A DNA stretch of 39,254 bases, from the NCBI GenBank assembly GCA_024227475.1, contig JAAEUI010000614.1, forward strand, positions 1 through 39,254. Reading direction: 5' to 3'. A program made the position numbers and the translations under genes. This stretch comes from Paracoccaceae bacterium (lineage in GTDB: Bacteria; Pseudomonadota; Alphaproteobacteria; Rhodobacterales; Rhodobacteraceae). Positions 15,986 to 34,321 of the stretch are shown here, piece by piece; the first letter of the stretch is position 1, and each line of letters begins with the position of its first letter. The notes beneath the pieces were generated by a model. The model was not told the origin of the DNA, searched no databases, and saw only the letters and a program-made list of their open reading frames with translations.

Positions 15986-17809
15986 TCAACGGCAAATAAT
16001 CGCTGACTCTTCATCAAGATACAGTTGGGCCACCTGATCAGCCCGGTTCTCCAGCACGGCCCGCTGATTGATGTACCCTTTGTCCGTTATCTCACCAGCA
16101 TCCAAATCGGGCGGAGCCAAAAGGATCAACATTCGGCCAATTCGCTGGCTCGAGGCCGGATGGTCCTTGTTGTAAAGGTCTAGCTTCCGAATCAGCTCCG
16201 CTTTAACTTTTGGGTCCCGCGTAAGCTCTGAAACAGGCGATTCCGGCGGCAACCCGGCAACCTCGGCCAGTGCAGGTGCGTTGGCAAAAACAAGCAACCC
16301 AATTTCATCCCGGTCATGGCCGGTAACAACCGCATCCTGTATCATCGGATTGGCCGCAGCAATGGCGGCTGTGCGAATGGTGCTGGCGCTGACCCAACTA
16401 CCGGTCATCAGCTTGAAATCCTCCGCTATACGCCCGTCAAACACCAGGCCTTCGGCTGGATTGTCAGGGTTGGCCAGCTTTACTGCGTCGCCGATACGAT
16501 AAAACCCGTCTTCATCGAATGCATCGCGCGAAATATCCGGACGTCCGTAATACCCCGGGGTCACATTCACACCACGTATCCGGGCCTCAAGCTTACCGCC
16601 CGAGGGAACCAGCTTCACTTCACTTCCAGGTGCCGGCAGCCCCAGCAAATCGGACCGGTCAATCGCAAAGTGAACCGAGGTGGTCAGCGGCGCAGTTTCT
16701 GTTGAGCCCCATGCCGTTGTCATCGGGATTTCACTGCCCCGGGCTGCCAGTGAGAGATCTTGCAAACGTCTAAACAGGTTTTGCGGCAGGGCGGCGGCGG
16801 CGAAAAACAATGTATCCAGGTTGGAAAAGAAATGATCGCGGAAGCTGTCATCGCTTTCCAGAAACGGAATCAGTTGGTCGTATCCGCGTGGCACGTTGAA
16901 ATAGATGGTCGGCGCTACATCCTTCAGGTTCTTCACCGTGGTGTCGACCAACCCGGGCGCCGGTTTTCCGGCGTCGATGTACATCGTGCCGCCATTGCGC
17001 AGAGCCAGATTGAAATTATGGTTGGATCCGAAAGTGTGGCTCCACGGCAGCCATTCCACCAGCACCGGCGGCCTGTTTTCGATAAACGGCCAGCATTGGG
17101 CCAGTGCTTGCTGGTTGGAGCACATCATCCGGTGGGTGTTGATAACACCTTTTGGCAAACCGGTTGACCCCGAAGTAAACAGGATTTTGGCCACTCCGTC
17201 AGGATCAAGCGCCGAGACAGAAACATCAACATCCGGTGTTTCTGTCGTCGCTAAAAGAGAAGAAAAAGGCGTCGCCGCCAGCTCTGCCGGAGGGTTTTTG
17301 GACACGACAACCTCAACCCCTTCAAGATCCAGCGCCTTCAGTGCCTTCTCATAAATCCGCCCATCAGGGGCATAGATGAGCGAAGGGTTCAGCACGTTGA
17401 ACACATGCTTCAGCTTGCCATGATCCTGTGACATCAGCGCATAGGCAGGTGTGATCTGCGACACAGGTATTCCGGCCATAATTCCACCGAGATACATGAT
17501 TGCGTGGTCGACCGAATTGTCACTAACAATCATGACCGTTCGCTCAGCCGTGATGTTCCTGCCCATCAGCGCCTGAGCAACCGCCCGGGCCATACTGCGC
17601 GCCTGCGAATAGCTGTATTCCGCCCAGTTTCCGGTTTCATCCCGCTCGGCCAGAAAGATCCGGTTCGGGGTTTTGGACGCCCAGTTTTCAAGCCATTGGC
17701 AGATATTATTGGCATACGGCTTAAGCTTTACGGGCGAGCGCAGGATAAAGGACCCATCATCCAGATCCTGACGTTCAACGAGCGGCGGCGCAAACGAGAT
17801 TTTGTGCAT
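15986..17809 (-). CDS. Feruloyl-CoA synthetase-like acyl-CoA ligase
   Basis: A 607-residue ANL ligase that matches the feruloyl-CoA synthetase group in length and wording. It has the N-terminal [19 protein letters not shown]-type entry, [18 protein letters not shown] as P-loop (about residues 210-227), [17 protein letters not shown] and [10 protein letters not shown]. The C-terminal part is atypical for ANL enzymes but normal for this group ([17 protein letters not shown]). It would activate an aryl-propenoic or similar acid. It is the last gene of the fifteen-gene run, 9 bases after the SDR. A second ligase and a CoA-transferase lie in the same run, so it may act on a distinct intermediate. 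Confidence 0.85.
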
Positions 17810-17818
17810 GGGTCCAGC

Positions 17819-18646
17819 CTACATAATCAAGCCACCAGAAGCCAACAGGACCTGCCCACTGATGTAATTCGCTTCCGGTGAACACATAAGATAAACGGCA
17901 CCTGCAGCTTCCTCAGGTGTGCCGCCACGACCCAACGGGATCATCTGGTTCATGGCTTTCAGCATGTCGGGATGAACCCCCATGCTGATCGTCCGGTTGC
18001 CAACCTGAGCCTCGGATTCGCCTTCACCCAAGGGTGCCGTCATGCGAGTTTTGATGTAGCCGAACGCGACGCAATTGACGTTAACGTTGTAGCGTCCCCA
18101 TTCCTTGGCCAATGTGCGGGTCATACCCACCAGTGCGGACTTGCCAGCGGCATACCCCATCTGCCCGGCGTTGCCGTAAAGCCCGGCTATGGATGAGATA
18201 TTCACGACCTTGCGATAGACGTCTTGCCCGGCTGCTTTTTCAGCCTTGGCGGCTGGGCGGATGAAATCAGATGCCGCGCGCAAAATGCGAAACGGAGCCA
18301 CGGTGTGGATGTCCAGCATCGCCTCGAACTGTTCGTCGGTCATTTTCTGGATAACTGTATCCCAGGTATACCCGGCGTTGTTGACGATGATATCGACGCC
18401 GTCAAAACTGCTGACAGCCGTATCAACGAAACGGTTGCCGAAATCCTTGGCGGTGACGTCGCCTACACAAGCGACCGCTTTTGATCCCAGCATTTCGATT
18501 GCACTGACGGTTTCTGCGGCAACGGTTTCGTCCAGGTCGTTGACCACAACATTTGCACCCTCACTTGCCAGTTTCAGCGCAATCGCCTGCCCAATACCGC
18601 GCCCTGACCCGCTGACCAGCGCTACTTTTCCTTCAAGTTTTTTCAT
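17819..18646 (-). CDS. Short-chain dehydrogenase/reductase (3-hydroxyacyl-CoA or similar)
   Basis: A 275-residue classical [17 protein letters not shown] cofactor motif (residues 12-25), [30 protein letters not shown] with the catalytic Ser/Tyr/Lys set, and the C-terminal [13 protein letters not shown] typical of FabG/hydroxyacyl-CoA dehydrogenases. A longer loop before the active-site strand ([18 protein letters not shown]) is shared with hydroxyacyl-CoA-type SDRs. Its ATG overlaps the CoA-transferase stop as ATGA. With the MaoC hydratases and the thiolase of this operon it could complete a beta-oxidation turn. Confidence 0.87.
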
Positions 18647-19860
18647 TGTCCGTTCTCCGACTGTTGTTCTGTGTTTGGTATGACGCCATCTACCGCCAGC
18701 TCTGCTATCTCTGTTGGCGAATACCCACCTTCAGTCAGTATTTGGCTGGTGTGTTGAGAATACTTGGGAGGAAAACTCAGCTCATTTGCAGGCGCATCGC
18801 CCACGGCCAGTGGCTGCATTCGCAACGGTTTGCCATCCGGCATTGTGGTGTGGGTTAATTTTGAGGCAATCGCCTCCATCCCAGCCACCTGCGCGATGGT
18901 TTGAATGGGGGCATGCGGGATGGTTGCAGCGCGAAAATCGGTCGCAATTTCAACGGCGCTAGCCAGTTTTGTGATTGCAGCAATATCGCGGTGAATGGCG
19001 TCGCGTTCCTTGTGGCGGCCTTCGTTTGTCAGCCGCCTCTCGTTGGCAATCGGGGCAAAACGGGGCAGTTCGCTCAAGCGTCGCCATTGAACATCAGACC
19101 CTATGGCCATAAAAATAAACCCATCCGCCGTTGGATAAGCGTTGGTCGGGATGAATTTTCGGTGTTCATTGCCGCAGCGGGTAATCTCCGAATAATCGCA
19201 ATCAAAATCCAGAAGCGGCAATGTGGTGATCAGCCAACTGGTGGCCGCCTGTAACATGGAAACGTGAACCTCGGCCCCCTTACCGGTTTCCGCCTTTTCC
19301 AACAGCGCCTGAAAGACGGCTGCATAAACCTCATCCCCGGCTTTAAGGTCAATGATCGGCACACCGGCCAGGGTTGGATCACCGTCGGCCTCTCCGGTCA
19401 GTTCCATGTAACCGGCCATTGCCTGAATTGCCGGGTCGTAACCCGGAACACCGGGATACTCTGCACCCATTGCGGAAATCGCTGCCCAGATCAGATCGGG
19501 CTTGCGAGCAGACATGGTGGCGTAATCGACCCCAAGCGAGACGTGGCGCGAAGGCATTGTGTTGCAACAGAAAACCTCGACATCCAGCTCATCAATCAGG
19601 CGGTACAGAACCTCCTGGCCCTTTGGCGATTTGAGATTCAGCGCAATCGCCTCTTTGCCGACATTTGGAGCCACGAAATAACTACGGCGGTCATCATCGG
19701 CCACGACCGAGCCGATATAGCGGTTGGGATCCCCTGGCAGGCCGCGCCCGGTCGGGGTTGCCTCAATGCGGATCACCCGCCAGCCCAGTTGCGCGAAACG
19801 CAGCGTCGCGTAGGGCATTGAAAGCGCCTGTTCCAACGATATGACCGTTCGCCGCTTCAT
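18643..19860 (-). CDS. Class III (CaiB/BaiF) CoA-transferase
   Basis: A 405-residue class III CoA-transferase. The N-terminal strand and [18 protein letters not shown] are followed by [12 protein letters not shown]. The aspartate expected to form the acyl-anhydride intermediate aligns at Asp171 in [10 protein letters not shown], 21 residues before the TGKG turn, as in formyl-CoA transferase. I chose ATG 19860 because it lies one base after the TGA of the molybdenum subunit gene; the longer frame from 19899 would overlap that gene. It would move CoA from a donor thioester to a pathway acid without ATP use. The partner acids are unknown. Confidence 0.87.
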
Positions 19861-19861
19861 A

Positions 19862-22171
19862 TCAGAGCCGCCCGTTCTTTTCGGCAATGGCGCGGGCAAC
19901 TTTTTCCGGCGTCAGCGGAGGATGATCAATGCGAACACCTGTCGCGTTGTAAAGCGCATTGCCAATGGCAGGGGCAATGACGATTGTTGGCAGTTCTGCA
20001 ATACCCTTGGCACCGGCAGGGCCCTCAGCGTCGCCGGTTTCGATAAAGGTAAGGTCAAATTCGGGCATCTCGGGTGCTGTCATCACATGATAATCCCGAA
20101 AGCTCGGGTTCAGCACCTTGCCTTCAACGATTTTCAACTCTTCGCTCAGGGCATAGCCCAGCCCCATGGCAATTCCGCCTTCAATCTGGCCCTCAAGACC
20201 GACGGGATTGATGACCCGGCCCACGTCCTGCGCCGACCAGATTTTCTCAACCGTGATCGCACCCAGCTTGGTATCAACGACAATTTCAGCCACATGGGCC
20301 GCGTGCGAGTAGGCAGCCGACATATCGCCCATGTGGTCCTTGTCTTCAGGCTCACTTGGCGGCTCATAGTAATCTGTTGCCATCACCAGTTCGGCGTCTT
20401 CCCCCGCGAAATGCATCTGGCGCAGTATTTTGTCCAGCGGCATGAGCGCAAGGCCGCTTTCGGCCTGCACCACATATCCCTGCCGCAGATCAAGCATCTC
20501 GTGGGTCATGTTGGTGTGCGAAGCCGCCGCTTTCAAAATCTGCTCTCGTGCCTTGCGGGCCACCCGGATTGCCGAATTACCGGCGATATATGTCGTGCGA
20601 CTGGCGTGAACGCCCACATCCCACGGGCGCAGGGCACTGTCATTGTTGATGATGGTGACGTCTCGCATCGGCACGCCCAGTTCCTCGCTCACCAGCTGAG
20701 CCAGAACCGTGTCGAGCCCCTGCCCGATCTCAGACCCGCCGGTGATGATGGTCACCCGCGCATAGTCATCCATCTTCAGCATGGTGCCACAGCCATCGGA
20801 CTTGTGGATTTTCGCACCCCCCGCGTTGTGCAACGAGGTGGCGATGCCGATGCCGCGCCGGAAACGTTCCGAGCTGTCCCAGCCTTTGTTGTTTTCGTGC
20901 CATTTGTTCAGGAAATCAGACCTTTCGGCGGCCTGCTTGATGCAACCCGTCAGGTCGATACAGCCAAGGTTGGACCCTTGCGGCGTGATCTCATTCGGCG
21001 GATTTGCGTTCTTCAGACGAAAGGCGACCGGATCCATCCCAATGGTTTCGGCCATCTTGTCCATGTGGGTTTCCAGCGCCCAGGTCGCCTGCACGTTGCC
21101 GTAGCCGCGGAACGATCCGGCGAACGGGTTATTGGTGTAAACCGCCCGTGCCCGGTATTTCACATTCGGTACCGTGTAATGCGAAGTCATCGTACGCATG
21201 GTCACGTAAGGCGTCGTTGCCCCCCACGACGTATAGCCGCCATTATTCAGCAAGGAATCGCAATCGCGGAAGGTCAGCGTGCCATCCTTTTTCATCCCCG
21301 CACGGATTTTGAATTCCACCGGCTGGCGGGTGGGTGAGGCGATAAATTCCTCTTCGCGCGAATAGATCAGTTTCACCGGGCGGCGGGTCTTTTTGGCCAG
21401 AAATACGCAGATCGGCTCGTAAGGGTAAACGTCGAGCTTTGAGCCAAATGCCCCGCCAACCGGCGGCTGGATAATGCGGACATCACCGGGGTGCACCCCA
21501 AGCGACGGGGCAATATCCATTTTGACGTTAAAGGGGTACTGGGTTTGCGTATAGATGGTTACGCGCCCGTCAGTGTCGTAATCGGCAAGGGTACAGCTGA
21601 CACCCATATTGCAATGGGCGACATAGTGGACGTTGTACTCCCCTTCGACGATGTAGTCAGATGCGGCCTCGCCCGCCGCCATATCGCCGTGTTCAAAATT
21701 CTGTTCCATGGCGATGTTGTCGGGGCAGTCCTCGTGAATGATCGGCGCACCTGCCGCCAATGCCTCGGTACAGTCAAAAACCGTCGGCAGGTCATCGTAT
21801 TCCACCTTGATCAGGCGGATTGCCTCATCGCAAATCTCTTCACTGTCCGCCGCCACGGCGGCAATCTCATCGCGGATACAGCGCACGGTATCGGTTTTGA
21901 GTGGTGGATTGTCACGCAAAACACCGATTTTGCCACCGGGGGTATCCTTGGCGGTGATGACCGCTGCCACACCCGGCAGGGCCTCGGCTGCTGACGCGTC
22001 AATCGACACGATGTGGGCATGCACCCGGTCGGTTCGCAGGATTTTCCCGAAAAGCATCCGCGGCAAAACCATGTCGTTGATATAGCGGGTGCGGGCAACC
22101 GCCTTGTCCGGTGCGTCCAGTTTGGTAACACGTTTGCCGATAAGGCTTTGTTTTTCTATGATCTTATCCAT
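19862..22171 (-). CDS. Molybdenum hydroxylase large subunit (xanthine dehydrogenase family, molybdopterin-binding)
   Basis: A 769-residue large subunit of the xanthine dehydrogenase family. It has the N-terminal a/b hammerhead domain (ARTRYINDM to VEYDDLP, about residues 26-130), then cofactor-binding motifs [18 protein letters not shown] and [11 protein letters not shown], and the terminal [10 protein letters not shown] whose glutamate is the conserved catalytic base. I chose ATG 22171 because GGAG lies 8 bases upstream; a GTG at 22180 overlaps the preceding stop. These enzymes hydroxylate heteroaromatic rings or aldehydes using water, or reduce hydroxybenzoyl-CoA. The substrate is unknown, but every neighbour handles CoA thioesters, so an acyl-CoA or the free acid is likely. 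Confidence 0.9.
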
Positions 22172-22176
22172 ACCGA

Positions 22177-22653
22177 TCACTCCGCCGCAACAGCGCTGGC
22201 AGCAGCCACAGCACTGATGATTTTCTTGTATCCTGTGCAGCGGCAGACATTTCCCTCAAGGCCACGCTCGATTTCCTCAGGCGTCATTCTGGGGTTTTTG
22301 CTAAGCAAATATTTCGTCTGCATGATCATGCCGGGCGTACAAAACCCGCATTGAATCGCACCTTCATCGATAAAGGCCTGTTGAACCGGATCAATGCCGT
22401 CTTCTGACCAAAGACCTTCAACCGTCAGCACCTCGCGCCCATCAAGATCAACCGCAGGCAACAGGCACGAGTTTCGCGAACGACCATCAACAATGATGGT
22501 GCAGGCCCCGCATTCGCCTTCACCGCAAGCCAGTTTGGTTCCGCCAAGCTCAAACGCACCACGCAACAGTTCCAGCGCTGACGCTGTGACCTGAGCGTCT
22601 GCCTGCACAGGTTTTCCGTTAAGGGTGAAGATGATTTTCTGAGTTAACGACAT
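22177..22653 (-). CDS. Molybdenum hydroxylase [2Fe-2S] small subunit
   Basis: A 158-residue ferredoxin-type subunit with the two iron-sulfur motifs of the family: the plant-type CGEGECGACTI (about residues 43-53) and the second cluster CGFCTPGM with CRCTGY near the C-terminus. It passes electrons from the molybdenum centre to the FAD subunit. ATG 22653 (MSLTQKIIF) overlaps the FAD gene stop by 10 bases. An in-frame start at 22704 exists but would add 17 residues that lie within the FAD gene and look unlike this family. Confidence 0.92.
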   Translation of the reverse strand: MSLTQKIIFTLNGKPVQADAQVTASALELLRGAFELGGTKLACGEGECGACTIIVDGRSRNSCLLPAVDLDGREVLTVEGLWSEDGIDPVQQAFIDEGAIQCGFCTPGMIMQTKYLLSKNPRMTPEEIERGLEGNVCRCTGYKKIISAVAAASAVAAE

Positions 22654-23513
22654 GCAATTAACTCCGCTTCCAGAAAAGTTCGGGCCATCTGTGTTCGGTA
22701 CCATTTTGAGGCGCGGAAATCGTCAATCGGCGCGATTTCCGTGGCCATCAGGTCAAGCGCGCTTGCGATCAGATCGTCGCTGATCGTCTTGCCATCTATC
22801 ATAGCCTCGGTTTTTTCACAGCAAATGGGTGTGGGACCGACTGCGCCAAAAACAAGGCGTGGGTTGCTGAGTTTTCCGCCTTCAAGCAGTCCGGTCAGAC
22901 ACATGGCCACCATTGAGATTTCTAGGGCCGGACGGGGCCCGGATTTACAGAAAACGCCGTGGAAATTGCCGGGAGGAGTTTCAAACTCGATCGCCGTGAT
23001 CAGCTCATCAGCGGTCATTTGGGTATTGCCAGGCCCTTTGAAAAACCCCGAAAGCGGCAGAAATCGCGTTTCGCGTTTTGAACGAAGCTCCACAGACGTG
23101 CCCAATCCGATCAGCGGTAAAACCGCGTCAGCAGCAGGCGAGGCATTGGCGATGTTACCGCCAATCGTGGCTGCGTTGCGAATTTGCGGCGCGGCAAAAC
23201 GGTTAGCCATCTGGGGCAGCAATGGCACCTTTTCGTTCAACAGCGGGCTTTCCAGAATCTCCGATATTGTGGTCAGCGCGCCAATGCGGATTTTGCCAGC
23301 GACTTCTGCAATGCCGCAAAGTTCTGAAACACGCGAGATATTGACCAGCCGCTGGCGCAGACGGCCATTGCCGCTGTCCTTCTGCGCCCACAGGTCGGTG
23401 CCACCCGCAAGTGCGGTGCCCTGCCCGTCCGCCAATGCATCAATGGCCGCATCCACAGAGCTGGCGGCAACGTATTCGCCGATATCGGGCGGGCGTTTGT
23501 TTTGTGGCAACAT
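22644..23513 (-). CDS. Molybdenum hydroxylase FAD-binding medium subunit
   Basis: A 289-residue subunit with the FAD motifs AGGTDLWAQ (residues about 37-45) and ATIGGNIANASPAADA (about 115-130), plus the CO-dehydrogenase-type C-terminal domain. It lacks the extra [4Fe-4S] loop that distinguishes the beta subunit of 4-hydroxybenzoyl-CoA reductase, and its length agrees with that. So ordinary hydroxylation with NAD or quinone as acceptor is more likely than reductive dehydroxylation. It sits 11 bases after the mutase gene, and its 3' end overlaps the FeS gene. Confidence 0.9.
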   Translation of the reverse strand: MLPQNKRPPDIGEYVAASSVDAAIDALADGQGTALAGGTDLWAQKDSGNGRLRQRLVNISRVSELCGIAEVAGKIRIGALTTISEILESPLLNEKVPLLPQMANRFAAPQIRNAATIGGNIANASPAADAVLPLIGLGTSVELRSKRETRFLPLSGFFKGPGNTQMTADELITAIEFETPPGNFHGVFCKSGPRPALEISMVAMCLTGLLEGGKLSNPRLVFGAVGPTPICCEKTEAMIDGKTISDDLIASALDLMATEIAPIDDFRASKWYRTQMARTFLEAELIACR

Positions 23514-23524
23514 TTTGTCGTCCT

Positions 23525-25141: not shown

Positions 25142-25535
25142 TGGTTTTCTCCTTGATAGCGGCAACGATTTCACTCAGCGAAGAAGAGGTATTGTAAATC
25201 GCGTCAACCCCAATGTCGCGCAACGTCTCATGGTCTTCAGCAGGGATGTTCCCCCCTGCAATCCATAACCTGTCGCTAAGCTGGTATTCTTCGATCAACA
25301 CCTTCAGGCGCGTACAAATCGGCAGGTGCGAGCCTGACAGGATCGACAATGCAATCACGTCAGCATTAAAATCCCGAGCGGCGTTGACGATATCCTCACC
25401 ACTTTGACGAAGACCGGTGTAACGCACATCAAACCCGGCATCGATCAGGGCGCGAGCAACAACCTTGGCACCGACGTCGTGTCCATCCAAACCCGGTTTT
25501 GCCAGCAGAACTCTGGTTTTGCGGGTCTCGTTCAT
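25134..25535 (-). CDS. Cobalamin (B12)-binding subunit of the acyl-CoA mutase
   Basis: A 133-residue stand-alone B12-binding domain. It has the base-off/His-on signature DGHDVG (Asp17, His19, Gly22), the SILSGSH loop and the AGGNIP loop that hold the nucleotide tail. It pairs with the catalytic subunit encoded immediately downstream, the split arrangement also found in isobutyryl- and 2-hydroxyisobutyryl-CoA mutases. ATG 25535 has AGGGAG 8 bases upstream; a GTG at 25541 overlaps the acyl-CoA dehydrogenase stop. No cobalamin riboswitch was seen in the operon leader. Confidence 0.92.
   Translation of the reverse strand: MNETRKTRVLLAKPGLDGHDVGAKVVARALIDAGFDVRYTGLRQSGEDIVNAARDFNADVIALSILSGSHLPICTRLKVLIEEYQLSDRLWIAGGNIPAEDHETLRDIGVDAIYNTSSSLSEIVAAIKEKTIE
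25149..25154 (-). promoter_or_regulatory. Ribosome-binding site supporting a TTG start of the mutase subunit
   Basis: AAGGAG ends 7 bases before TTG 25141, inside the last codons of the B12-subunit gene. No comparable site precedes ATG 25174 or ATG 25120, so it decides the start. Confidence 0.55.
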
Positions 25536-25537
25536 AT

Positions 25538-26662
25538 TCACAACTCCCTCGCGATGTTCAGTTTCAGGAGTTCGCTGGTACCGCCACCTATCAACGTAAA
25601 GCGAATGTCGCGCAGGTGGCGCTGCACTGAAAACTCCATAGCGTACCCATAAGAGGCCAGAACGCGGGCCGCCTTGTCACAAACATCCGCTGCCAATTCT
25701 GAGGCATTCAGCTTGGCCATGGCCGCTTCTTTGGCGTGGGGTCGGTTCTGGTCCTTCAACCACGCAGCATAGGCGACAAGATGGCTTGCGGCCTCCATAT
25801 CGGTCGCCATTTCCGCCAGTTTCAGCTGGATCGCCTGAAAGCGGTTGATCGGTTTGCCAAATTGCACCCGTTCGCCGGCGTAACGGATGGCCTCGGCCAG
25901 TGCCGCTTTGCCCCCACCCAGAGCCATCGCACCGGTGATAATGCGGATTTCGGCAAGCAGTTTGTGTAGGTGTGTCTCACCCTCGCCTTCACCGCTGAGA
26001 AGGTGGCTGTCAGGCACAAAGCAATCGTCAAAAGAAACCTCTGAGGTTGGCAGCGCCCAAACCCCCATCTTGTCTATTGAGCGGCCTATGTTCACACCGT
26101 CAAAATCCCGTTCCACCAGAAAAATGGTGATCTTCTGACCCTCGCCTGCCTTGGCGAAAACCGTGAAGAAATCCGCCAGCGGTGCCGCCGTTACCCACAT
26201 TTTCTGGCCGTTCAGATGATAGCCGCCGTCGACTTTTGTGGCACTGGTCGACATGGCCCCCAGATTGGAACCTGCATCAGGTTCGGTCATGCAGATCGCG
26301 CCGATTTTGTCGCCCATTAGAGCGGGTGCAAACAGGCGTTCCTTGATGTCCGCGTTGCCAAGCATTTGCAAAAACCGCGTTCCCATCAGTGACTGCATGG
26401 CTATGCAACCGGCCACCGACATAGAGCCGCGCGCGATCTCTTCCAGCGCCAGACAGAACGTCATCAGATCAACGCCCGAGCCGCCGTCCGCCTCAGGGTA
26501 ACGCATTCCGGCAAAGCCAAGGGCACACAGTTCGCGCACCAGTTCACGCGGGTATTCATGCGCTTCATCAAGCTGGGCGGCAACCGGGGCAATTCGTTCG
26601 TCGGAAAACCGCGCGAACGTGTCTTTTACTGCCTGTTGTTCCTCGCTTAGGGCAAAATCCAT
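25538..26662 (-). CDS. Acyl-CoA dehydrogenase with a non-standard catalytic-base position
   Basis: A 374-residue acyl-CoA dehydrogenase with the usual ICMTEPDAGSNLGAM (about residues 125-139), KMWVTAAPLADFF, and RVQFGKPINRFQAIQ segments. The C-terminal motif normally reading YEGTSE is LIGGGTSE, so the glutamate of short-chain and medium-chain enzymes is glycine. A group that includes isovaleryl-CoA dehydrogenase places the base elsewhere, in the LERL helix; here that helix reads AEIRII, with a glutamate one residue off. It probably oxidises a branched or unusual acyl-CoA. The gene lies 3 bases after hyuB and overlaps the B12-subunit region downstream. Confidence 0.87.
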   Translation of the reverse strand: MDFALSEEQQAVKDTFARFSDERIAPVAAQLDEAHEYPRELVRELCALGFAGMRYPEADGGSGVDLMTFCLALEEIARGSMSVAGCIAMQSLMGTRFLQMLGNADIKERLFAPALMGDKIGAICMTEPDAGSNLGAMSTSATKVDGGYHLNGQKMWVTAAPLADFFTVFAKAGEGQKITIFLVERDFDGVNIGRSIDKMGVWALPTSEVSFDDCFVPDSHLLSGEGEGETHLHKLLAEIRIITGAMALGGGKAALAEAIRYAGERVQFGKPINRFQAIQLKLAEMATDMEAASHLVAYAAWLKDQNRPHAKEAAMAKLNASELAADVCDKAARVLASYGYAMEFSVQRHLRDIRFTLIGGGTSELLKLNIAREL

Positions 26663-26665
26663 GTA

Positions 26666-28342
26666 TTATCCCTCCAACCCATAGGCTTTACGGGCGGCTT
26701 CGGACGAAATCACGCCATTGCGAACCTCGCGGCGCAGAACGTCCCGATCCCGTTTTGCAGGGTCACCGTAACCACCTCCGCCACCGGCAAGTTGATGATA
26801 AAGCGTCCCCTTTGGCACACCTTTGATCAGGTCTTTGTTGTCAGGCACGTGTTCAGTGCCGTCGGGATAAGTCAGGGTGATCGAGTTTAAGGTACCGTCC
26901 CCGCCACCAAACAGCCCGAAAGCCGGTTCAAAATCGCCATCGCCAAAGGTCACGAATTGGGTATCTTCGGATCCGATAACAAATTCGGTTTCCACCCCCA
27001 GCCCACCGCGCCATTCCCCGGCTCCGGCGCTATCCTCTAGGTATTCATGCTTTTTCAAAAGATGCGGGGTTTGCTGTTCAAACATCTCATAATCCTGATC
27101 AAGCAAACCACCGGATGCATCGATCATGCCTATATGATCGTATCCATCGGTCCCCAGCATCGCGCCCGATCCACCCTTCAGCCCCATGAAACCAATATCG
27201 ACGTATTTGTCGCCCTTCTCTTCATCCATTCCCGTGGTCAGAGAGCATAACAGGTTGTTCCACCCGGCGGTAATCCTGTCAGGTATTACCGGGGCCAGCG
27301 CGCGAATAATTGCGTCTGCATTGGGTGGGCACAGGTGGTTACCAAAGGTCGTCGCCTTTGGATAATTTGCATTCAGCACCGTGCCTTCGGGGATAATCAT
27401 CTCAATCGGCTGCACCATACCCTCGTTATGGGGAATATCCGGGTTCACCATTTGCAGGAATGTTAGGATGGTGGCCGAAGCACTTGAAGTATAGGTGCCG
27501 TTAACAAACCCATCGGTCTGGGCATCGGTGCCGGTGTAATCAAAGACGATATTCCTGTCGTTGACGGTAATTGTCACGCGAATGGTGAAACGGCTGCCTT
27601 TGTGGTGGCCGTCATAGTAAATCTCGCCCTCGCCTTTGTAGACCCCGTTGGGAACGGAAGCGATTTCGGCCTCCATCATCTTGCGTGATGCGTTGAACAA
27701 TTCGGCCTTGTGGGCTTCAAAACTGTGAACCCCGTATTTGCCCAAAAGCTCCTGCACCCGACGCTCGCCCACTGTGCAGGCACCCATCTGGGCCTTCATA
27801 TCATGATCAACAATCTCCAGCCGGATATTGGCGAAAATCAGGTCCCAGACATCGCGGCGCAGCTTGCCCTTTTCATAGACTTTGATCGGGGGAATTCGCA
27901 GCGCCTCTTGCCAAACCTCCTTGGCCTCGGGGTTATAGCCACCTGGAACATTGCCACCGATATCGGCCTGATGACCCTTAACAGCGGACCATGCAACCAG
28001 CTGATTTTCAAAGAAAATCGGTTTGAACACCGCAACATCATTGTTCTGGTTGCCCATGGAGAAGACATCGTTGTGAAAGATCACATCGCCCGGGTGAATA
28101 TCGCCGTCGTAATAGTCGATGATATAACGGCAGACCGGCGCCAGCGAGAACGCCAGAATGGGCAGGTTTTCGGTCTGCTCCAGCATATTGCCCTCCGCGT
28201 CGTACAGCCCGGTAACGAAGTCCTTGGCCTCGCACAGGATCGGCGAGCGGGCGGATTTTTCGACCGAGATGCTCATCTCGTCGGTGATGGATTTGAAGGT
28301 GCGGGCGTAAACCGACAGCAGGATAGGATCAATTCCGGTCAT
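26666..28342 (-). CDS. hyuB: Hydantoinase B/oxoprolinase family protein (HyuB-like)
   Basis: A 558-residue HyuB-family subunit with SVEKSARSPILCEAKDF (about residues 26-42), KGHQADIGG (about 121-129), LNANYPKATTFGNH and the glycine-rich QLAGGGGGYGDP near the end. Family members work with HyuA to hydrolyse lactam or imide rings with ATP (5-oxoprolinase, N-methylhydantoinase) or to carboxylate ketones (acetone and acetophenone carboxylases). The usual NDPYxGGTHxxD metal-site motif reads NDVFSMGNQNND, so the histidine is glutamine. The gene starts as ATGA on the hyuA stop. The reaction here is unknown. Confidence 0.85.
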   Translation of the reverse strand: MTGIDPILLSVYARTFKSITDEMSISVEKSARSPILCEAKDFVTGLYDAEGNMLEQTENLPILAFSLAPVCRYIIDYYDGDIHPGDVIFHNDVFSMGNQNNDVAVFKPIFFENQLVAWSAVKGHQADIGGNVPGGYNPEAKEVWQEALRIPPIKVYEKGKLRRDVWDLIFANIRLEIVDHDMKAQMGACTVGERRVQELLGKYGVHSFEAHKAELFNASRKMMEAEIASVPNGVYKGEGEIYYDGHHKGSRFTIRVTITVNDRNIVFDYTGTDAQTDGFVNGTYTSSASATILTFLQMVNPDIPHNEGMVQPIEMIIPEGTVLNANYPKATTFGNHLCPPNADAIIRALAPVIPDRITAGWNNLLCSLTTGMDEEKGDKYVDIGFMGLKGGSGAMLGTDGYDHIGMIDASGGLLDQDYEMFEQQTPHLLKKHEYLEDSAGAGEWRGGLGVETEFVIGSEDTQFVTFGDGDFEPAFGLFGGGDGTLNSITLTYPDGTEHVPDNKDLIKGVPKGTLYHQLAGGGGGYGDPAKRDRDVLRREVRNGVISSEAARKAYGLEG

Positions 28343-30456
28343 GGTTTTGGCTCCTTCATCGCTGAGGCAACGAGGTCTTCGTGCCCTTTTCGGTAGATGG
28401 CGAAGGATCCGAATTTGTCACAAACGCATCCGTAGGCGCGGGAAACGAAAATGGCGGTGGTGGCTTCCTCAATCATCGCCGGGCCGTCTATCTGATTGCC
28501 ATGTGCGACTTTGTGGCCGTCATAGACGGGAACACTTGCGAAAGCGTTGTCTTCGGGTACGTATACCAACCGCTCGCCTTTAAGCGCTGCACTTGCATCG
28601 GGTCCGGCCCATGGTTCTTCGGGATAGGCAGGTTTGTCAGCGTTGCCTAAAGCTTGTACCCGGACGTTGATGATTTCAACCTGCGCCGCGCTGTCTTCCA
28701 GCGAGTAACCGTAAAGACGGTTATGTTCCGCGTGAAACGCCGATGTGATTGCTGCGACGTCCTTGCCGGTAAAACCTTCGGGAGAAACTTCAAACGACAC
28801 TTCGTGATATTGTTTCAGGTAGCGGCAATCAAACCTGACGGTGAATTCCTGCGCTTCCTTTGCGATCAGTTCTTCGGTCAAAAGATCGCCGCCTTCGGCC
28901 TTCATTTCGCCGACCAGATCACCCAGCTGTCGCCAGTCGATCTCCTCCATCGGCGAAACAAAAGTGCGGACAAAATCATGCTTAAGGTCGCTCATCAACA
29001 TGCCTACTGCACACAGGATCGAGGATGAGCGCGGCACGATCTGCAGCGGAATTTCCAGCTCATCCGCAATCAGACAAGAATGGATCGGGCCAGCACCACC
29101 CGCCACCACCATCGGAAATTCGCGCGGATCAAAGCCCCGCTTGATGGTTATTTCGCGCACTCCCTGCGCCATGTTGTTACAAACAACGCGGTACATCCCG
29201 GCAGCGGCTTCCTCGGTGGTCAGGCCCATCGGATCAGCCACGGTTTCCTTGATTGCAGCGCGTGCCGCCTCAATATCCAGCGCCATCTTACCGCCAGCGA
29301 AAAAGTCGGGGTTGAGATAGCCCAACACCAGGTCGGCATCGGTACAGGCAGGTTTCTTGCCGCCTTTTGAATAACTCACAGGTCCAGGATCAGCACCAGC
29401 ACTTTCAGGCCCCATACGCAGAAGCCCGCCTTCGTCGATCCAGCCTAAGCTGCCACCCCCAGCACCAATGGTGTGAATGCCCAGCATTGGCAGGGCCAGA
29501 CGGTGCCGGTCGATATAACCCTCATTGACCATTACAGGACCACCATCAACCAGGGCCGCCTCAAAGCTAGTGCCGCCCATATCAACAACGATGCACTTTT
29601 CCTGATTATGGGCCTGAACAAAGCCAAGCCCTGCCCCAGGCCCGGCGGCCGGGCCAGACAACAATGTAAGGGCCGCACCACTGCGCGCCACATCGGGTGA
29701 CATCATACCGCCATTTGACTGCATGATCATCAGGACGCCGCCAAATCCAATCTTGCTAAGCGAGGTCTGCAAACGATCAATGTATCGGCTGAGGATCGGG
29801 CCAACATAGGAATTGAGCGCAGTTGTACTGATGCGTTCATAGAACCGGATTGTCGGCAGCAGGTCACTGGAAACCGACAGATAGGCATCCGGCATTTCGC
29901 GGCGCACGATCTCTGCCGCCTGGCGTTCGTGTTCAGGGTTGGCAAAAGAGTTCATGAAGCAGATTGAAACCGCCTCGACCCCTTCGGCGCGAAACTCGTC
30001 AATTGCAGCTTTTACATCCTGAACACTCAGCGGATCAACCTGCCGCCCACGCCGATCAAGCCGCCCGCCTATACCCTTGCGCAGATACCGTTCGACCAGA
30101 GGCACGACGTTGGTGAAGTGATTGTTATACTGCTCCTCGCGGATGCCCCGACGCATCTCGAGCGCATCTCGCAAACCTTTGGTTGTCAGCAGCCCTGATT
30201 TGGCCCCGCGTCTTGTCAGCGTGGCATTGGTGGTGACCGTGGTGCCGTGAACGATGGTCTCAATCGAGGCGGCAAAATCCTGAAGGCTCATGGCCGGATC
30301 AAGGCTGGCGGCAATCTCAGCCAAACCAGTGACAACAGCGATGGAAGGGTCTTCCGGGGTTGAGAGGGTTTTGTGGATGCGCGGCGCTTCGCCCTCGCCC
30401 ACATAATAGAAATCAGTGAACGTGCCGCCTACGTCAATGCCGATCTTGCCGCCCAT
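28339..30456 (-). CDS. hyuA: Hydantoinase A/oxoprolinase family protein (HyuA-like, ATP-dependent)
   Basis: A 705-residue HyuA-family protein of the ASKHA fold. The phosphate-1 motif IGIDVGGTFTDF is at residues 5-16, HGTTVTTNATLTRRGAKSGL follows near residue 70, and the second phosphate motif VDMGGTSFEAALV is near 291. VVAGGAGPIHSCLIADEL and a mixed C-terminal domain complete it. It is expected to phosphorylate a lactam, imide, ketone enol or bicarbonate with ATP, while HyuB completes the conversion. Start ATG 30456 overlaps the ligase stop as TAATG, so translation is coupled. The family spans hydrolases and carboxylases, and no residue seen here separates them. Confidence 0.88.
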   Translation of the reverse strand: MGGKIGIDVGGTFTDFYYVGEGEAPRIHKTLSTPEDPSIAVVTGLAEIAASLDPAMSLQDFAASIETIVHGTTVTTNATLTRRGAKSGLLTTKGLRDALEMRRGIREEQYNNHFTNVVPLVERYLRKGIGGRLDRRGRQVDPLSVQDVKAAIDEFRAEGVEAVSICFMNSFANPEHERQAAEIVRREMPDAYLSVSSDLLPTIRFYERISTTALNSYVGPILSRYIDRLQTSLSKIGFGGVLMIMQSNGGMMSPDVARSGAALTLLSGPAAGPGAGLGFVQAHNQEKCIVVDMGGTSFEAALVDGGPVMVNEGYIDRHRLALPMLGIHTIGAGGGSLGWIDEGGLLRMGPESAGADPGPVSYSKGGKKPACTDADLVLGYLNPDFFAGGKMALDIEAARAAIKETVADPMGLTTEEAAAGMYRVVCNNMAQGVREITIKRGFDPREFPMVVAGGAGPIHSCLIADELEIPLQIVPRSSSILCAVGMLMSDLKHDFVRTFVSPMEEIDWRQLGDLVGEMKAEGGDLLTEELIAKEAQEFTVRFDCRYLKQYHEVSFEVSPEGFTGKDVAAITSAFHAEHNRLYGYSLEDSAAQVEIINVRVQALGNADKPAYPEEPWAGPDASAALKGERLVYVPEDNAFASVPVYDGHKVAHGNQIDGPAMIEEATTAIFVSRAYGCVCDKFGSFAIYRKGHEDLVASAMKEPKP

Positions 30457-31976
30457 TACACGGATCGCTCAGCTAAGTGCGTGTCAGTCTTACCGGCCAT
30501 CGCCCTCAGATCGTCCTTAACCACTTTGCCCATTGCATTTCGTGGCAACTTTTCCAGAAAAATCACCCGGCGCGGATGCTTGAAACGCGCCAGACGACCA
30601 TCGAGAAACGCCAGAACGTCTTCCTCACCAAAATCAGTCCCACGTGTCGGCACAACAACAGCGACAACGATTTCGCCCCATTTTTCATCGGCTTGACCAA
30701 CAATCGCCACCTCGGAAATCTGCTGGCATTCAGCAAGTATATTCTCAATTTCAGCCGGGTATATGTTTTCGCCTCCCGAAATAATCATGTCCTTTTTTCG
30801 ATCGTCTATGTAGAGAAAACCGTTGTCATCAAGGTGCCCGATGTCGCCTGTGTAAAACCATCCATCAACAAGCGCGTTTTCAGTTTTTTCAGGCGCGTTC
30901 CAATATTCGCGCATGACATTACCACCCCGGATCAGGATTTCGCCACTTTTTCCCGCGGCGACATCCACCCCGACCTCGTCAACCAGGCGCATTTCACAGT
31001 GTATTGCCACTTTGCCGACAGAGCCTTCGTTGCCCATCGCCAGATCGGCCGTCAGGTAAGTGGCGATCGGGCAGGTTTCGGTGGATCCATAGACCTGAAT
31101 AAGGGGAATGCCCTGAGCATGAACCTGGCGGATCAGCCTGCGCGGCACATTGGTCGAGCCGGTTGTGATCACCTTGAGGGAATTCAATCTCGCATTTTGC
31201 CACCGTTCATCTGCAAGCAGCGCCGTAATCTGTGTCGGCACAAGAACGGTAAGGGTTACGTCATGCTCTTGGATATCGCGGAAGGTGGCTGCAACATCAA
31301 AGGCCGGATGCAGGACTAATGTGCCACCCGCGTGCAGGATTGGCAGGGTCTGGATGTTCAAGCCACCAACGTGAAACATAGGCAGTGAAGTCAGAGCAAC
31401 GTCATCCCCAACCATATCGTGCATATGTGTGCTGTTCACCGCGTTTAGAGCCAGCGCATTCTGATCAAGGACCACACCTTTGGGCCTGCCCGTCGCACCT
31501 GAGGTATAGCAAAGCAGCACCGGATCGCTGTATTTCCCCTCTCCCTTGATGGCGGGAATTGCCTGACATCTGGCCAGAAGATCTGCGGGCTCGTCAATGA
31601 AAACCTTGGCGATGCCAAGACTGTCGCAAAGCCGATCACCCTCATCCTTGAACTCGGGCGCTATGAACAATGCCACAGGCGCGCAATCTGCCAGCAACGT
31701 TTTGTGCTCGGCCTCTTCCAGACGCCAGGCCAGCGGCATCACCATCGCGCCAAGTCGCGCGCAGGCAAATAACAGGATAATCAGCTCGGGATGATTAAAC
31801 CCAAGATAGCCGATCCTGTCACCGGGCCGGATGCCCAATTCATGTTTTAATCGACCCGCAACCAGACTTATCCGCCGGGCCAGATCGGCATAGCTGATAA
31901 TCTCGCCTTCAAACCGGATCGCGACCTTGTCGGGCGTAAACCCCGCATGCCGCTCTATCCAGCTTGAAATATCCAT
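30456..31976 (-). CDS. Acyl-CoA ligase (AMP-forming, long-/medium-chain or aryl acid type)
   Basis: A 506-residue ANL ligase with the P-loop LLCYTSGATGRPKGVVLDQ (about residues 153-171), QVYGSTETCPIATY, WFYTGDIGHLDDNGFLYIDDRKKDMIISGGENI (hinge and C-terminal domain, in segments) and the lysine motif PRNAMGKVVKDDL. It makes an acyl-CoA from a free acid at the cost of ATP. Its start overlaps the thiolase stop as TGATG. It is more like general acid-CoA ligases than the feruloyl type at the end of the operon. Together they suggest activation at two different points, or a broad substrate range. Confidence 0.88.
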   Translation of the reverse strand: MDISSWIERHAGFTPDKVAIRFEGEIISYADLARRISLVAGRLKHELGIRPGDRIGYLGFNHPELIILLFACARLGAMVMPLAWRLEEAEHKTLLADCAPVALFIAPEFKDEGDRLCDSLGIAKVFIDEPADLLARCQAIPAIKGEGKYSDPVLLCYTSGATGRPKGVVLDQNALALNAVNSTHMHDMVGDDVALTSLPMFHVGGLNIQTLPILHAGGTLVLHPAFDVAATFRDIQEHDVTLTVLVPTQITALLADERWQNARLNSLKVITTGSTNVPRRLIRQVHAQGIPLIQVYGSTETCPIATYLTADLAMGNEGSVGKVAIHCEMRLVDEVGVDVAAGKSGEILIRGGNVMREYWNAPEKTENALVDGWFYTGDIGHLDDNGFLYIDDRKKDMIISGGENIYPAEIENILAECQQISEVAIVGQADEKWGEIVVAVVVPTRGTDFGEEDVLAFLDGRLARFKHPRRVIFLEKLPRNAMGKVVKDDLRAMAGKTDTHLAERSV

Positions 31977-33181
31977 CAGCCATCGCTCACATTGATGACC
32001 ACAGCCATGGCGGTATCACCCGCCGCGCAGCCTTCAAACAAACCATAACCGCCGCCCCGCATCGCCAGTTCTTCGATCAACTCAATGATCGAGCGCATGC
32101 CGGTTGGCCCCTGTGGATGCCCCCAGATCAACGAGCACCCATAGTTGTTCATCGCCATCACATCGGCTCCGGTTTCCCGTGAAAAAACAATGTCGTTGAG
32201 AGCGAAAGGGTTGTGCGAATTGATCGCATTCATATCCGAAATACCCAGCCCAGCCTGTTTTAGGGCGGCCTTCGCTGCTGGGATTGTGGCCTCTGGCATG
32301 AAGGCGGTATCGGCCCGACCCGAACCGAAACCAAGCACCCGCACGCGAATGTTGGGGTTCGCACTCATTTCTCGTGCACGAGATTGAGTGGCCATGACGA
32401 CGGTTGCGTTTCCATCCGCAGGATGGGTCTGCCCGCCAAAAGTTACCGTGCCGCCTTTAACCACCGGGCGCAGGATTGCCAACCCTTCGATTGTGGAAAG
32501 CGTGATGCCTTCATCGCCCTCAAGCGTTGTGGCAGTCTTGCGGAAATTATGCGTTGGGACATCCATGGGGGAAACCATGTAACGGCGCTGAAAAGCGCGA
32601 TTATCCGCCAGTGCTGCTTTATATTGTTCAGTACGGCGCAAAACGACCTCATGCTGTTCCTCGGTGGTGATCCCATGTTTTGCGGCAACGTTCTCCGCTG
32701 TCGTCACCATAGCGTGCCCACCATTGGGATCGCAGGAAAAATTGCCCATGACCCAGTCTTCATTGTCACCGGTCCCCCCGGGGCCCGAGGGGTTTGGATA
32801 ATAAAGATGCGGACCGTTTGATGTGCGATCGCAGGTCACAACAAGGGCAGCATCGGTGTTGCCGGTTTCAATCTCCTGCGCCCCGGTCAGAAGGCAACGC
32901 ACTGATGTGGCGCAGGCCTGACCGATGGCTGGACCTGTGGCCCTGTCTGCGCCCACAAGGGCACCTAGCCAGGGAAAGCCGTAAAATGAGTGTTTTTGCG
33001 GAACCGAGACTCCCAAAACGCCAAAATCAAACCCCGCGGGATCAATCTCGCGCCGCGCCAGTTCGGATTTGGCCACATGCGCCGCCAACTTAATGCTGTG
33101 AAGATCTGCCAACGCGCCCTGCCAGCGGGAAAACGGGGTGCTCCAATAAGCGCCATAAGGAATTTCAGCAATGTAAGTCAT
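31976..33181 (-). CDS. Thiolase family protein, SCP2-thiolase-like
   Basis: A 401-residue thiolase. The nucleophilic cysteine lies in GQACATSVRCL (about residues 87-97). The NEAFA motif of classical thiolases is replaced by SHNPFA, placing a histidine where SCP2-type thiolases have HDCF. The histidine motif is WGHPQGPTGMR, and the last cysteine is in EGCAAGD in place of C-x-G. All three catalytic positions are therefore present, and cleavage of a 3-oxoacyl-CoA to acetyl-CoA (or another short acyl-CoA) plus a shortened acyl-CoA is expected. It follows the MaoC gene by 30 bases, the largest gap inside the operon, and could have its own ribosome site. Confidence 0.85.
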   Translation of the reverse strand: MTYIAEIPYGAYWSTPFSRWQGALADLHSIKLAAHVAKSELARREIDPAGFDFGVLGVSVPQKHSFYGFPWLGALVGADRATGPAIGQACATSVRCLLTGAQEIETGNTDAALVVTCDRTSNGPHLYYPNPSGPGGTGDNEDWVMGNFSCDPNGGHAMVTTAENVAAKHGITTEEQHEVVLRRTEQYKAALADNRAFQRRYMVSPMDVPTHNFRKTATTLEGDEGITLSTIEGLAILRPVVKGGTVTFGGQTHPADGNATVVMATQSRAREMSANPNIRVRVLGFGSGRADTAFMPEATIPAAKAALKQAGLGISDMNAINSHNPFALNDIVFSRETGADVMAMNNYGCSLIWGHPQGPTGMRSIIELIEELAMRGGGYGLFEGCAAGDTAMAVVINVSDG

Positions 33182-33211
33182 GTCCGTGTTTTCCTGTGCA
33201 TTGTGGCCCTG

Positions 33212-33646
33212 CTAATCGACTGCCACCGTCGCGGCACCGGAAAGAAGAATTTTACCCTTCTGGTTCTCAGCCTTGATTTCCAGATCCACAAGATTCTCAC
33301 CATTCTCCTGGCGTTTTCCTACGACTTTACCAGCACAATTGATGGTATCACCCGGAACGGCCATCGACGCAAAGCGATTAGAGAACTTACGGATTCTTGA
33401 TTGTGGCACCCAGGCGGTCAACATCTGGCCCAGCACGGCCATCATCAGCATGCCATGCACGATGACACCCGGCAGCCCGCCGGCGCGAGCTTCCTCATCA
33501 TCAAGATGGATGGGATTGTGATCACCGGATGCTCCGGCAAAAAGGGCAAGCTGGGTGCGCGTAATCGGCCCCTTGGAAAAGGCGGGGATCGTTGCTCCAA
33601 CATCCAGATCGGCAAATTTGACATTGTCAGGCATGGTCTCACCCAT
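33212..33646 (-). CDS. MaoC-type enoyl-CoA hydratase (R-hydratase family)
   Basis: A 144-residue hotdog protein with the hydratase-2 motif FAGASGDHNPIHLDDEEA (about residues 36-53), whose Asp and His are the catalytic pair, and IVHGMLMMAVLGQML. It would add water to a 2-enoyl-CoA. ATG 33646 overlaps the upstream MaoC-like gene by 8 bases, and an in-frame ATG at 33634 is an alternative. The paired neighbour has the complementary N-terminal half fold, so they may form a two-chain hydratase. Confidence 0.88.
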   Translation of the reverse strand: MGETMPDNVKFADLDVGATIPAFSKGPITRTQLALFAGASGDHNPIHLDDEEARAGGLPGVIVHGMLMMAVLGQMLTAWVPQSRIRKFSNRFASMAVPGDTINCAGKVVGKRQENGENLVDLEIKAENQKGKILLSGAATVAVD

Positions 33647-34094
33647 TCCGAATGACTATTACAGAGTGTAAGTTGGCCACGGCATCGCCGCTCTGGTTTT
33701 CAAGTAAGGTCTCAGTTACCACAAAGATCAGAGCCCCGTTTTTCTTATCATAAAGGTCGGTTATCCGCTGCTGACCAGTGATTACATCACCCGCACAGAT
33801 ATCCCCAAGATAAGTGAAACCCTGCTCTCCATGAACCGCTTTGGTCTTTTCAACGCCCATGTCTTCCAGCACATTAAACGACTGTCCGGCATCCAATGTG
33901 ATCGTGAAAGCAAAGGTCGGAGGTGCAGGAATATCCCTGTATCCCCCTTGTTTTGCTACAGTATCATCAAAATGGAGCGGGTTTTCGGAGCCGATGGACT
34001 TGGCAAATTGCGCGATCCGCCCCTTTTCGACAAGAACCGAGAACTGGGAGTATTCCCTTCCCATGAACTCTTCTCGTAAAGCTTCGATTTCCAT
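33639..34094 (-). CDS. MaoC-like dehydratase, FAS1-type N-terminal hotdog partner
   Basis: A 151-residue hotdog protein like the non-catalytic N-terminal dehydratase domain of FAS1 and of two-chain MaoC hydratases: IAQFAKSIGSENPLHFDD at about residues 27-44, then PPTFAFTITLD and HGEQGFTYLGDICAGD. The catalytic aspartate of the SGDxNPIH motif is a glutamate/asparagine combination here (GSENPLH), so it probably supports the MaoC subunit encoded next to it. It is the first gene of the fifteen-gene operon. No strong ribosome site precedes ATG 34094; the leader contains the TetR-type inverted repeat. Confidence 0.85.
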   Translation of the reverse strand: MEIEALREEFMGREYSQFSVLVEKGRIAQFAKSIGSENPLHFDDTVAKQGGYRDIPAPPTFAFTITLDAGQSFNVLEDMGVEKTKAVHGEQGFTYLGDICAGDVITGQQRITDLYDKKNGALIFVVTETLLENQSGDAVANLHSVIVIRNG

Positions 34095-34183
34095 TTTCTA
34101 CTTTCGTGATTTTCTTTCGGGCAGTCAGTGCGATTTATTGGTCCCCCGAAGGTTCCTCAGGGTCATACAAAAGTTATCTTTTT

Positions 34184-34199: not shown

Positions 34200-34321
34200 C
34201 AGCAATCATACAGGGTGGGTATTTTGATTGCCTTGCTTGTGTTTCGGTTCTAGTATCGCCCCGGTGGCCAACCATATCCGGCCAGTAAAAAATGCCCCAT
34301 CTTGCGGTGCGGAAAGATTGA

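Follow-up and report, generated by a model that had tools for sequence, protein, structure and literature searches.

What is the substrate of fifteen closely packed genes that bring together a HyuA/HyuB pair, a B12-dependent mutase, a molybdenum (Mo) hydroxylase and enzymes of β-oxidation? The question is raised by the block at positions 15986-34094 of the window, the whole 39,254-nucleotide stretch analysed here (contig JAAEUI010000614.1), which belongs to a 4.2 Mb Paracoccaceae metagenome-assembled genome (MAG) in 657 contigs that is 79% complete. The original prediction regarded this block as a candidate for an undescribed pathway, on the ground that no described pathway combines these parts. 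Our analysis favors another answer. In gene content, gene order and diagnostic residues it matches the iaa operon of Aromatoleum aromaticum, which serves the breakdown of indole-3-acetic acid (auxin), and the block is very probably an alphaproteobacterial version of that operon. The iaa operon has been known since 2012 (Ebenau-Jehle et al., as cited in PMC8360864 and PMC9613470). The pathway is therefore of an already described kind, here in a distinct local setting.

The layout of the block is as first described. Its fifteen open reading frames (ORFs) all lie on the minus strand, and successive ORFs of the window's ORF list, taken from their longest starts, are spaced by 9, −4, −38, −4, −61, 11, −41, −4, 3, −4, −1, −1, 30 and −8 bases, a range of −61 to +30. 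The families originally named agree with Pfam and NCBIfam profiles, which back all fifteen genes. In the following list, locus counts refer to the 21 carrier loci introduced below, with the window included.

15986-17809, minus strand: outermost CoA ligase of 607 amino acids (aa), resembling NCBIfam PRK12582 (759 bits; cut-off of 777 not reached)
17819-18646, minus strand: SDR, putative 3-hydroxyacyl-CoA dehydrogenase of side-chain β-oxidation (profiles; homologues in other loci)
18643-19899, minus strand: class III CoA-transferase, IaaL-like (phenylsuccinyl-CoA transferase) (profiles; relatives in 17 of 21 loci); an ATG 39 bases within the ORF is a likely start
19862-22180, minus strand: Mo-hydroxylase large subunit, putatively hydroxylating C2 of the indole ring (profiles)
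22177-22704, minus strand: Mo-hydroxylase [2Fe-2S] subunit (profiles; 14 of 21 loci)
22644-23513, minus strand: Mo-hydroxylase FAD subunit, 289 aa (XdhB model 209 bits; 4-hydroxybenzoyl-CoA reductase beta model 65 bits)
23525-25174, minus strand: B12 mutase large subunit, IaaGH-like (benzylmalonyl-CoA mutase) (profiles; Tyr78, Arg196 and His233 kept)
25134-25541, minus strand: B12-binding small subunit of the mutase (profiles; 21 of 21 loci)
25538-26662, minus strand: acyl-CoA dehydrogenase (ACAD), IaaF-like (decarboxylating benzylmalonyl-CoA dehydrogenase) (GGG motif at residue 359)
26666-28342, minus strand: HyuB, IaaE-like subunit of an ATP-dependent lactam hydrolase (profiles; 19 of 21 loci)
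28339-30456, minus strand: HyuA, IaaC-like subunit (DVGGTFTD, DMGGT and GADPGP sites)
30456-31976, minus strand: CoA ligase, candidate IaaB (indoleacetate-CoA ligase) (profiles; position upstream of HyuA elsewhere)
31976-33181, minus strand: thiolase, putatively cleaving to 2-aminobenzoyl-CoA and acetyl-CoA (profiles; homologues in 7 other loci)
33212-33646, minus strand: MaoC-type hydratase, putatively hydrating 2-aminocinnamoyl-CoA (profiles; 6 of 21 loci)
33639-34094, minus strand: MaoC-type partner with FAS1_DH region (profiles; 6 of 21 loci)

Among the iaa proteins, IaaB is a CoA ligase, IaaL a phenylsuccinyl-CoA transferase, IaaGH a benzylmalonyl-CoA mutase and IaaF a decarboxylating benzylmalonyl-CoA dehydrogenase, and the IaaF reaction of Aromatoleum aromaticum was demonstrated on benzylmalonyl-CoA as a proxy substrate (PMC8360864). 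IaaCE is a hydantoinase-like hydrolase of 707 and 564 aa, proposed to open 2-oxoindoleacetate in an ATP-dependent reaction (PMC8453981). In the window, the IaaF-like gene is encoded with HyuAB, the mutase pair, the CoA-transferase and the ligase adjacent. The order ligase-HyuA-HyuB-ACAD-mutase pair-(Mo-hydroxylase)-CoA-transferase parallels the letters B, C, E, F, G/H and L, which appear to follow gene order. HyuA and HyuB are 705 and 558 aa in length, close to IaaC and IaaE, and the three HyuA motifs listed above match the ATP-site patterns given in PMC8453981.

Diagnostic residues add to this picture. IaaF proteins carry GGG in place of the YEG common to most ACADs (PMC8360864), and the corresponding stretch of the window ACAD, LIGGGTSE, contains this motif, as do the ACADs of all 19 carrier genomes in which the gene is readable (26 rows, several sharing a genome). 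The mutase is of the two-part type, with separate large and B12 subunits, and aligns best with 2-hydroxyisobutyryl-CoA mutase 4r3u (499 bits), followed by human methylmalonyl-CoA mutase (402 bits). Its Tyr78 and Arg196, which presumably bind the free carboxylate of the substrate, are as in methylmalonyl-CoA mutase, whereas 4r3u has Ile and Gln there. The Tyr/Arg/His set is present in all 29 rows from the 21 carriers; since ordinary methylmalonyl-CoA mutases share it, these residues indicate a dicarboxylyl type of mutase and not its substrate. In a tree of 35 mutase rows, the 21 carrier rows fall on one side of a branch with support of 100/100; before the tree was built, rows that repeated a genome were removed, as were 20 of the 26 rows for ordinary methylmalonyl-CoA mutases. 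Identity as a 2-hydroxyisobutyryl-CoA or isobutyryl-CoA mutase was considered and dropped, as Tyr78 and Arg196 are retained, not replaced. A separate mutase occurs in a congeneric genome (G010, loci L007 and L039); it is 45% identical, has the same Tyr/Arg pair and lies near weak relatives of enoyl-CoA hydratase and CoA-transferase, with no HyuAB match in the stretch read. Judged by these neighbors and residues, it is possibly a different dicarboxylyl-CoA mutase.

These assignments allow a route to be proposed for the source organism, in which each reaction is one that we infer. Indoleacetate would be taken up by a TRAP transporter and activated to indoleacetyl-CoA by the CoA ligase at 30456-31976. 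Hydroxylation at C2 by the Mo-hydroxylase would give 2-oxoindoleacetyl-CoA, the lactam of which could be opened by HyuAB at the expense of ATP to form (2-aminophenyl)succinyl-CoA. The class III CoA-transferase would then shift CoA between both carboxylates, the B12 mutase would rearrange the product to (2-aminobenzyl)malonyl-CoA, and the GGG-type dehydrogenase would decarboxylate it oxidatively to 2-aminocinnamoyl-CoA. Hydration by the MaoC pair, oxidation by the SDR and cleavage by the thiolase would finally yield 2-aminobenzoyl-CoA and acetyl-CoA. For the Mo-hydroxylase, MaoC pair, SDR and thiolase, the putative roles follow position, chemistry and what the studies of Ebenau-Jehle in 2012 and Schuhle in 2016 reportedly describe. 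The original prediction offered one option that comes close to the iaa route: hydroxylation of an N-heteroaromatic acid, ring opening by HyuAB, rearrangement by the mutase and β-oxidation. It survives in this form, without its status as undescribed.

The distribution of the operon was followed with the mutase, for which a scan of genome contigs gave 14 loci, namely 13 carriers and one unrelated mutase (L057). Further carriers came from searches of relatives, phylum and class, and the merging of duplicates left 21 carriers, the window included: 16 alphaproteobacterial genomes, one Bacteroidetes bin and four Archaeoglobi. The mutase and its B12 subunit are present in all 21 loci, HyuA, HyuB and ACAD in 19 each, the CoA-transferase in 17, the second ligase in 10 (7 at >50% identity), the thiolase in 8, TetR in 7, the MaoC pair in 6, the SDR in 5 and the outermost ligase in 1, with some absences reflecting contig or stretch ends. 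The Mo-hydroxylase large subunit was found in 14 of the 21 stretches read and any of its subunits in 15. HyuA or HyuB accompanies the mutase in 20 of the 21 loci, counting a cut HyuB at the edge of L055, and the remaining locus (L050) begins inside the B12 gene. The mutase, HyuAB and Mo-hydroxylase thus recur together, the reverse of the pattern that the original prediction had named as speaking against a single pathway.

Identity to the window across the 15 remaining alphaproteobacterial carriers is 65-90% for the mutase and, where seen, 61-90% for the ACAD and 75-91% for HyuB; the exception is the HyuAB of G681, which is distant (37/28%) and stands beside a mutase and an ACAD that are both close. 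In G043, the interval from HyuB to the B12 subunit contains no ACAD. CoA-transferase relatives elsewhere are 30-84% identical, SDR homologues follow the CoA-transferase in 4 other loci (79-90%), and thiolase homologues occur in 7 (60-84%). Homologues of the candidate IaaB ligase (53-59%) lie directly upstream of HyuA in L045, L046, L047, G250, G602 and G688. The gene order of the window is kept in L045, L046 and L047, and likewise in L049 but without the ligase; such recurrence makes the block more than a product of chance. A qualification concerns the outermost ligase, found in the window alone. More than 4 kb past the SDR gene is available in L045, L047 and L049 and contains no such ligase, while the remaining loci are uninformative on this point, as they end too early or have no SDR.

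Within its own lineage the operon is patchy: the iaa mutase is absent from all 36 genomes searched in the same genus or family, where the best match reaches 46%. A Ferroglobus MAG and other Archaeoglobi are among the carriers, and Ferroglobus placidus and Rhodopseudomonas palustris are named among IaaF carriers (PMC8360864). An IaaF-like ACAD occurs in at least 2 of 398 genomes of the phylum sample, a lower bound because four candidates were scored per genome, and the mutase was found in 8 of 385 genomes of the class sample at E ≤ 1e-180, with at most three candidates scored. A mutase scan of viral contigs found nothing, and tblastn of plasmids with the mutase returned 428 records, every one below 60% identity. 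Three archaeal loci encode a small V4R-domain protein between HyuB and ACAD (L054, 3806-4306; L056, 4712-5200; L058, 7778-8311), and that of L056 contains an XylR_N aromatic-sensing domain above cut-off. From its domains, this protein is possibly a free-standing effector sensor.

The end product of the iaa pathway is 2-aminobenzoyl-CoA (PMC9613470), and genes that may consume it lie next to the block, in an operon that spans 2349-14644 and whose monooxygenase/reductase gene is 1.3 kb away.

12350-14644, minus strand: fused FAD monooxygenase/FMN reductase, putative 2-aminobenzoyl-CoA monooxygenase/reductase (NCBIfam PRK08255, 1262 bits, cut-off 1078; co-occurrence)
2349-12353, minus strand: rest of the putative 2-aminobenzoyl-CoA operon, comprising thioesterase, Liv-type ABC importer, benzoate-CoA-ligase-family ligase, acyl-CoA dehydrogenase, enoyl-CoA hydratase, MarR and SDR (profiles; neighbors elsewhere)

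Homologues of the monooxygenase/reductase occur in all 16 alphaproteobacterial carriers (in 15 the match covers 740 or more of the 764 residues, and the sixteenth has pieces at contig ends), as opposed to 11 of 58 non-carrier relatives in a sample of 61 genomes that also holds three carriers; at a looser E ≤ 1e-30, 40 of the 61 match. Elsewhere, the Bacteroidetes bin and three Archaeoglobi have partial matches, and the fourth Archaeoglobi genome has none. SDR, MarR and ligase genes also lie beside the monooxygenase gene in L099, L100, L101 and L102, joined by the hydratase and dehydrogenase in L099 and L101. The co-occurrence suggests an ortho-amino aryl product, and the neighboring operon is likely an aerobic consumer of 2-aminobenzoyl-CoA, through which this product would leave the pathway in the presence of oxygen. 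Without oxygen, the exit would probably be a class I benzoyl-CoA reductase encoded elsewhere in the genome. The window's own genome has the seven genes had-oah-dch-bcrCBAD, each above cut-off, and benzoyl-CoA reductase subunit B exceeds its cut-off in 12 of the 21 carriers, 11 of which are alphaproteobacterial. In the phylum sample it occurs in 3 of 398 genomes, two being carriers; the comparison is thus 11 of 16 alphaproteobacterial carriers versus 1 of 396 non-carriers, whose status rests on four scored candidates per genome. Fisher values are 1.9e-9 for the monooxygenase/reductase and 4.1e-17 for reductase subunit B, and they ignore shared ancestry. The co-occurrence of likely consumers of 2-aminobenzoyl-CoA provides independent support for identification as iaa.

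Several further features lie in or near the neighboring operon. At its 3' end is a RidA-family (enamine/imine deaminase) gene (1958-2359). L101 and L102 have homologues of it next to the monooxygenase operon, and the Bacteroidetes locus L053 has one placed between HyuB and ACAD; the protein may handle an enamine from the monooxygenase/reductase. In the solute-binding protein at 6162-7562, a periplasmic binding domain is preceded by an Lrp/AsnC ligand-binding domain at the N terminus, an odd pairing. Between both operons, the plus strand encodes at 15141-15977 an alpha/beta hydrolase of the hormone-sensitive lipase family (349 bits, above the cut-off of 320). The interval 14645-15140 contains no ORF of 100 aa or more; its short frames, by eye, seem to us to resemble the start of a glutaryl-CoA-dehydrogenase-like protein, and it is perhaps a decayed gene.

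On its other side, the block is flanked, as originally described, by a divergent TetR gene and a TRAP transporter.

34322-34897, plus strand: TetR regulator, divergent (profile; homologues flank the operon in 6 other loci)
34912-36357, minus strand: TRAP large permease DctM, candidate indoleacetate importer (profile; co-occurrence with the operon)
36360-36890, minus strand: TRAP small permease DctQ (profile)
36982-37968, minus strand: TRAP solute-binding protein DctP (profile; closest solved relative 4mnc)

The six TetR homologues are 61-89% identical. A search for an inverted repeat at 34080-34340 found none, and scans gave no excess of promoter-like sites, with 8 compared to an average of 11.3 (sd 3.5) after shuffling, or of terminator-like sites, with 24 compared to 20.3 (sd 4.3). 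The TRAP transporter is a candidate importer of indoleacetate. DctM was found at E ≤ 1e-120 in 11 of the 21 carriers, all alphaproteobacterial (11 of 16), and the ten besides the window are 65-86% identical. Among the 61 relatives, the three that match are exactly the three carriers, and none of the 58 non-carriers does (Fisher 1.0e-9). DctP is closest to 4mnc (179 bits), the next structure being 4p47 at 43 bits; we take 4mnc/4mni to hold benzoylformate. Among the matches listed in a literature search, no TRAP indoleacetate importer was tied to iaa genes. Working against this assignment, DctM shares the operon's contig in 3 of 11 carriers (the window, G602 and G688) and is on another contig in 8; the TRAP genes of G602 and G688 adjoin TetR but are inverted with respect to the window; and 5 of 16 alphaproteobacterial carriers have no DctM at this threshold, including G779, the mutase of which is closest (90%). 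It is tentatively suggested that iaa, a dedicated TRAP indoleacetate importer and oxygen-dependent and oxygen-independent product exits form a patchy alphaproteobacterial module for auxin mineralisation. If so, a module with both exits would let the cell use auxin through changing oxygen conditions.

A number of observations weigh against identification as an iaa operon. Six of the 21 carriers (G571, G681 and the four Archaeoglobi) have no Mo-hydroxylase match in the stretch read, although some stretches end early, and the large subunit of G660 is a distant match of 36%. The ligase at 15986-17809 has no step in the proposed route. HyuA, HyuB and the Mo-hydroxylase subunits meet no NCBIfam cut-off, and among the matches listed no NCBIfam model is named for iaa. 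GGG is also present in two of three unrelated ACADs (<32% identity) from the fetched loci, and the motif therefore agrees with IaaF but is no proof of it. PRK08255 is named for salicylyl-CoA 5-hydroxylase/oxidoreductase, not for 2-aminobenzoyl-CoA, and 5 of the 16 alphaproteobacterial carriers have no match to benzoyl-CoA reductase B. The likeness to iaa of A. aromaticum and A. evansii rests on published features, not sequence alignment, the source MAG is incomplete (79%, in 657 contigs), and the limits on the association statistics and the uneven distribution of DctM given above belong here as well.

Three other explanations were weighed. The best of these, itself unlikely, is that an iaa-like module has been retargeted to another 3-substituted indole acid, an oxindole acid or an aryl lactam acid by the same chemistry, perhaps via the extra ligase at 15986-17809. 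The restriction of that ligase to the window among 21 loci fits such a change, and the specificities of the Mo-hydroxylase and ligase are putative; the high identities of mutase, ACAD and HyuB (G681 excepted) across the other alphaproteobacterial carriers and the 16 of 16 co-occurrence of the likely 2-aminobenzoyl-CoA consumer speak against it. Very improbable is the second option of the original prediction, in which HyuAB carboxylates an aryl ketone that is then activated and cleaved by the thiolase, as in acetophenone breakdown. The HyuA/HyuB superfamily does include acetophenone carboxylase, but the scores with caprolactamase models are some two to four times those with carboxylase models (668/394 versus at best 338/106 bits for HyuA/HyuB), the block encodes no further carboxylase subunit, and a dicarboxylyl-type mutase and a GGG dehydrogenase would be left unexplained. 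That two or more unrelated transcription units lie adjacent and collinear by chance is a similarly slim prospect: the carriers lacking a Mo-hydroxylase match and the few loci with MaoC pair, thiolase or SDR would fit it, but the genes overlap or nearly touch throughout, their order is shared with L045, L046, L047 and, minus the ligase, L049, and some missing members may lie past the ends of the stretches read.

Particular enzyme identities were also considered and rejected. The caprolactamase scores are below the NCBIfam equivalog cut-off of 1000 for each CapAB subunit, and acetophenone carboxylase models reach 338 of 1500 (ApcC), 195 of 1250 (ApcA) and 106 of 1500 (ApcD) bits. For 4-hydroxybenzoyl-CoA reductase, the three subunits score 600, 65 and 143 bits, with curated cut-offs of 994.55, 404.55 and 257.8. 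The beta subunit of that enzyme has an extra 4Fe-4S loop, and its model has 321 positions, compared with 289 aa in the FAD subunit of the window.

If the block is read as an iaa operon, 15 genes that seemed to form an unknown pathway yield a prediction open to test: this bacterium and its relatives would feed on auxin by way of iaa. The set of iaa carriers grows, their operon is linked by statistics to likely users of 2-aminobenzoyl-CoA, both aerobic and anaerobic, and a particular importer is put forward. The auxin function would be overlooked if each gene were annotated only by its family, as hydantoinase, methylmalonyl-CoA mutase or xanthine dehydrogenase.

Comparison with known systems places the block most closely beside iaa. 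It shares the HyuA/HyuB family and ATP-site patterns with caprolactamase CapAB and 5-oxoprolinases, but falls short of the CapAB cut-offs. The iac and iad auxin loci act on the same substrate as iaa, from which they are set apart as highly divergent in genes and pathway (PMC9613470). The neighboring operon resembles the 2-aminobenzoyl-CoA pathway of Azoarcus evansii in its ligase and monooxygenase/reductase flavoenzyme; the A. evansii enzyme is a homodimer of 170 kDa (PMC4539516), and the 764-aa protein of the window is estimated at roughly 84 kDa. It differs in that it would be fed from indoleacetate and in the salicylyl-CoA name of its NCBIfam model. The iaa systems of A. aromaticum EbN1 and A. 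evansii have in common with the block a ligase, the HyuAB pair, a GGG-type dehydrogenase, a two-part B12 mutase and a class III CoA-transferase. Growth of A. aromaticum on indoleacetate is described both with and without oxygen (PMC8360864). Compared with A. aromaticum iaa, the window has adjoining TRAP and TetR genes, one more CoA ligase, a likely operon for 2-aminobenzoyl-CoA as its neighbor and, compared by description only, a MaoC pair and an SDR within the operon itself.

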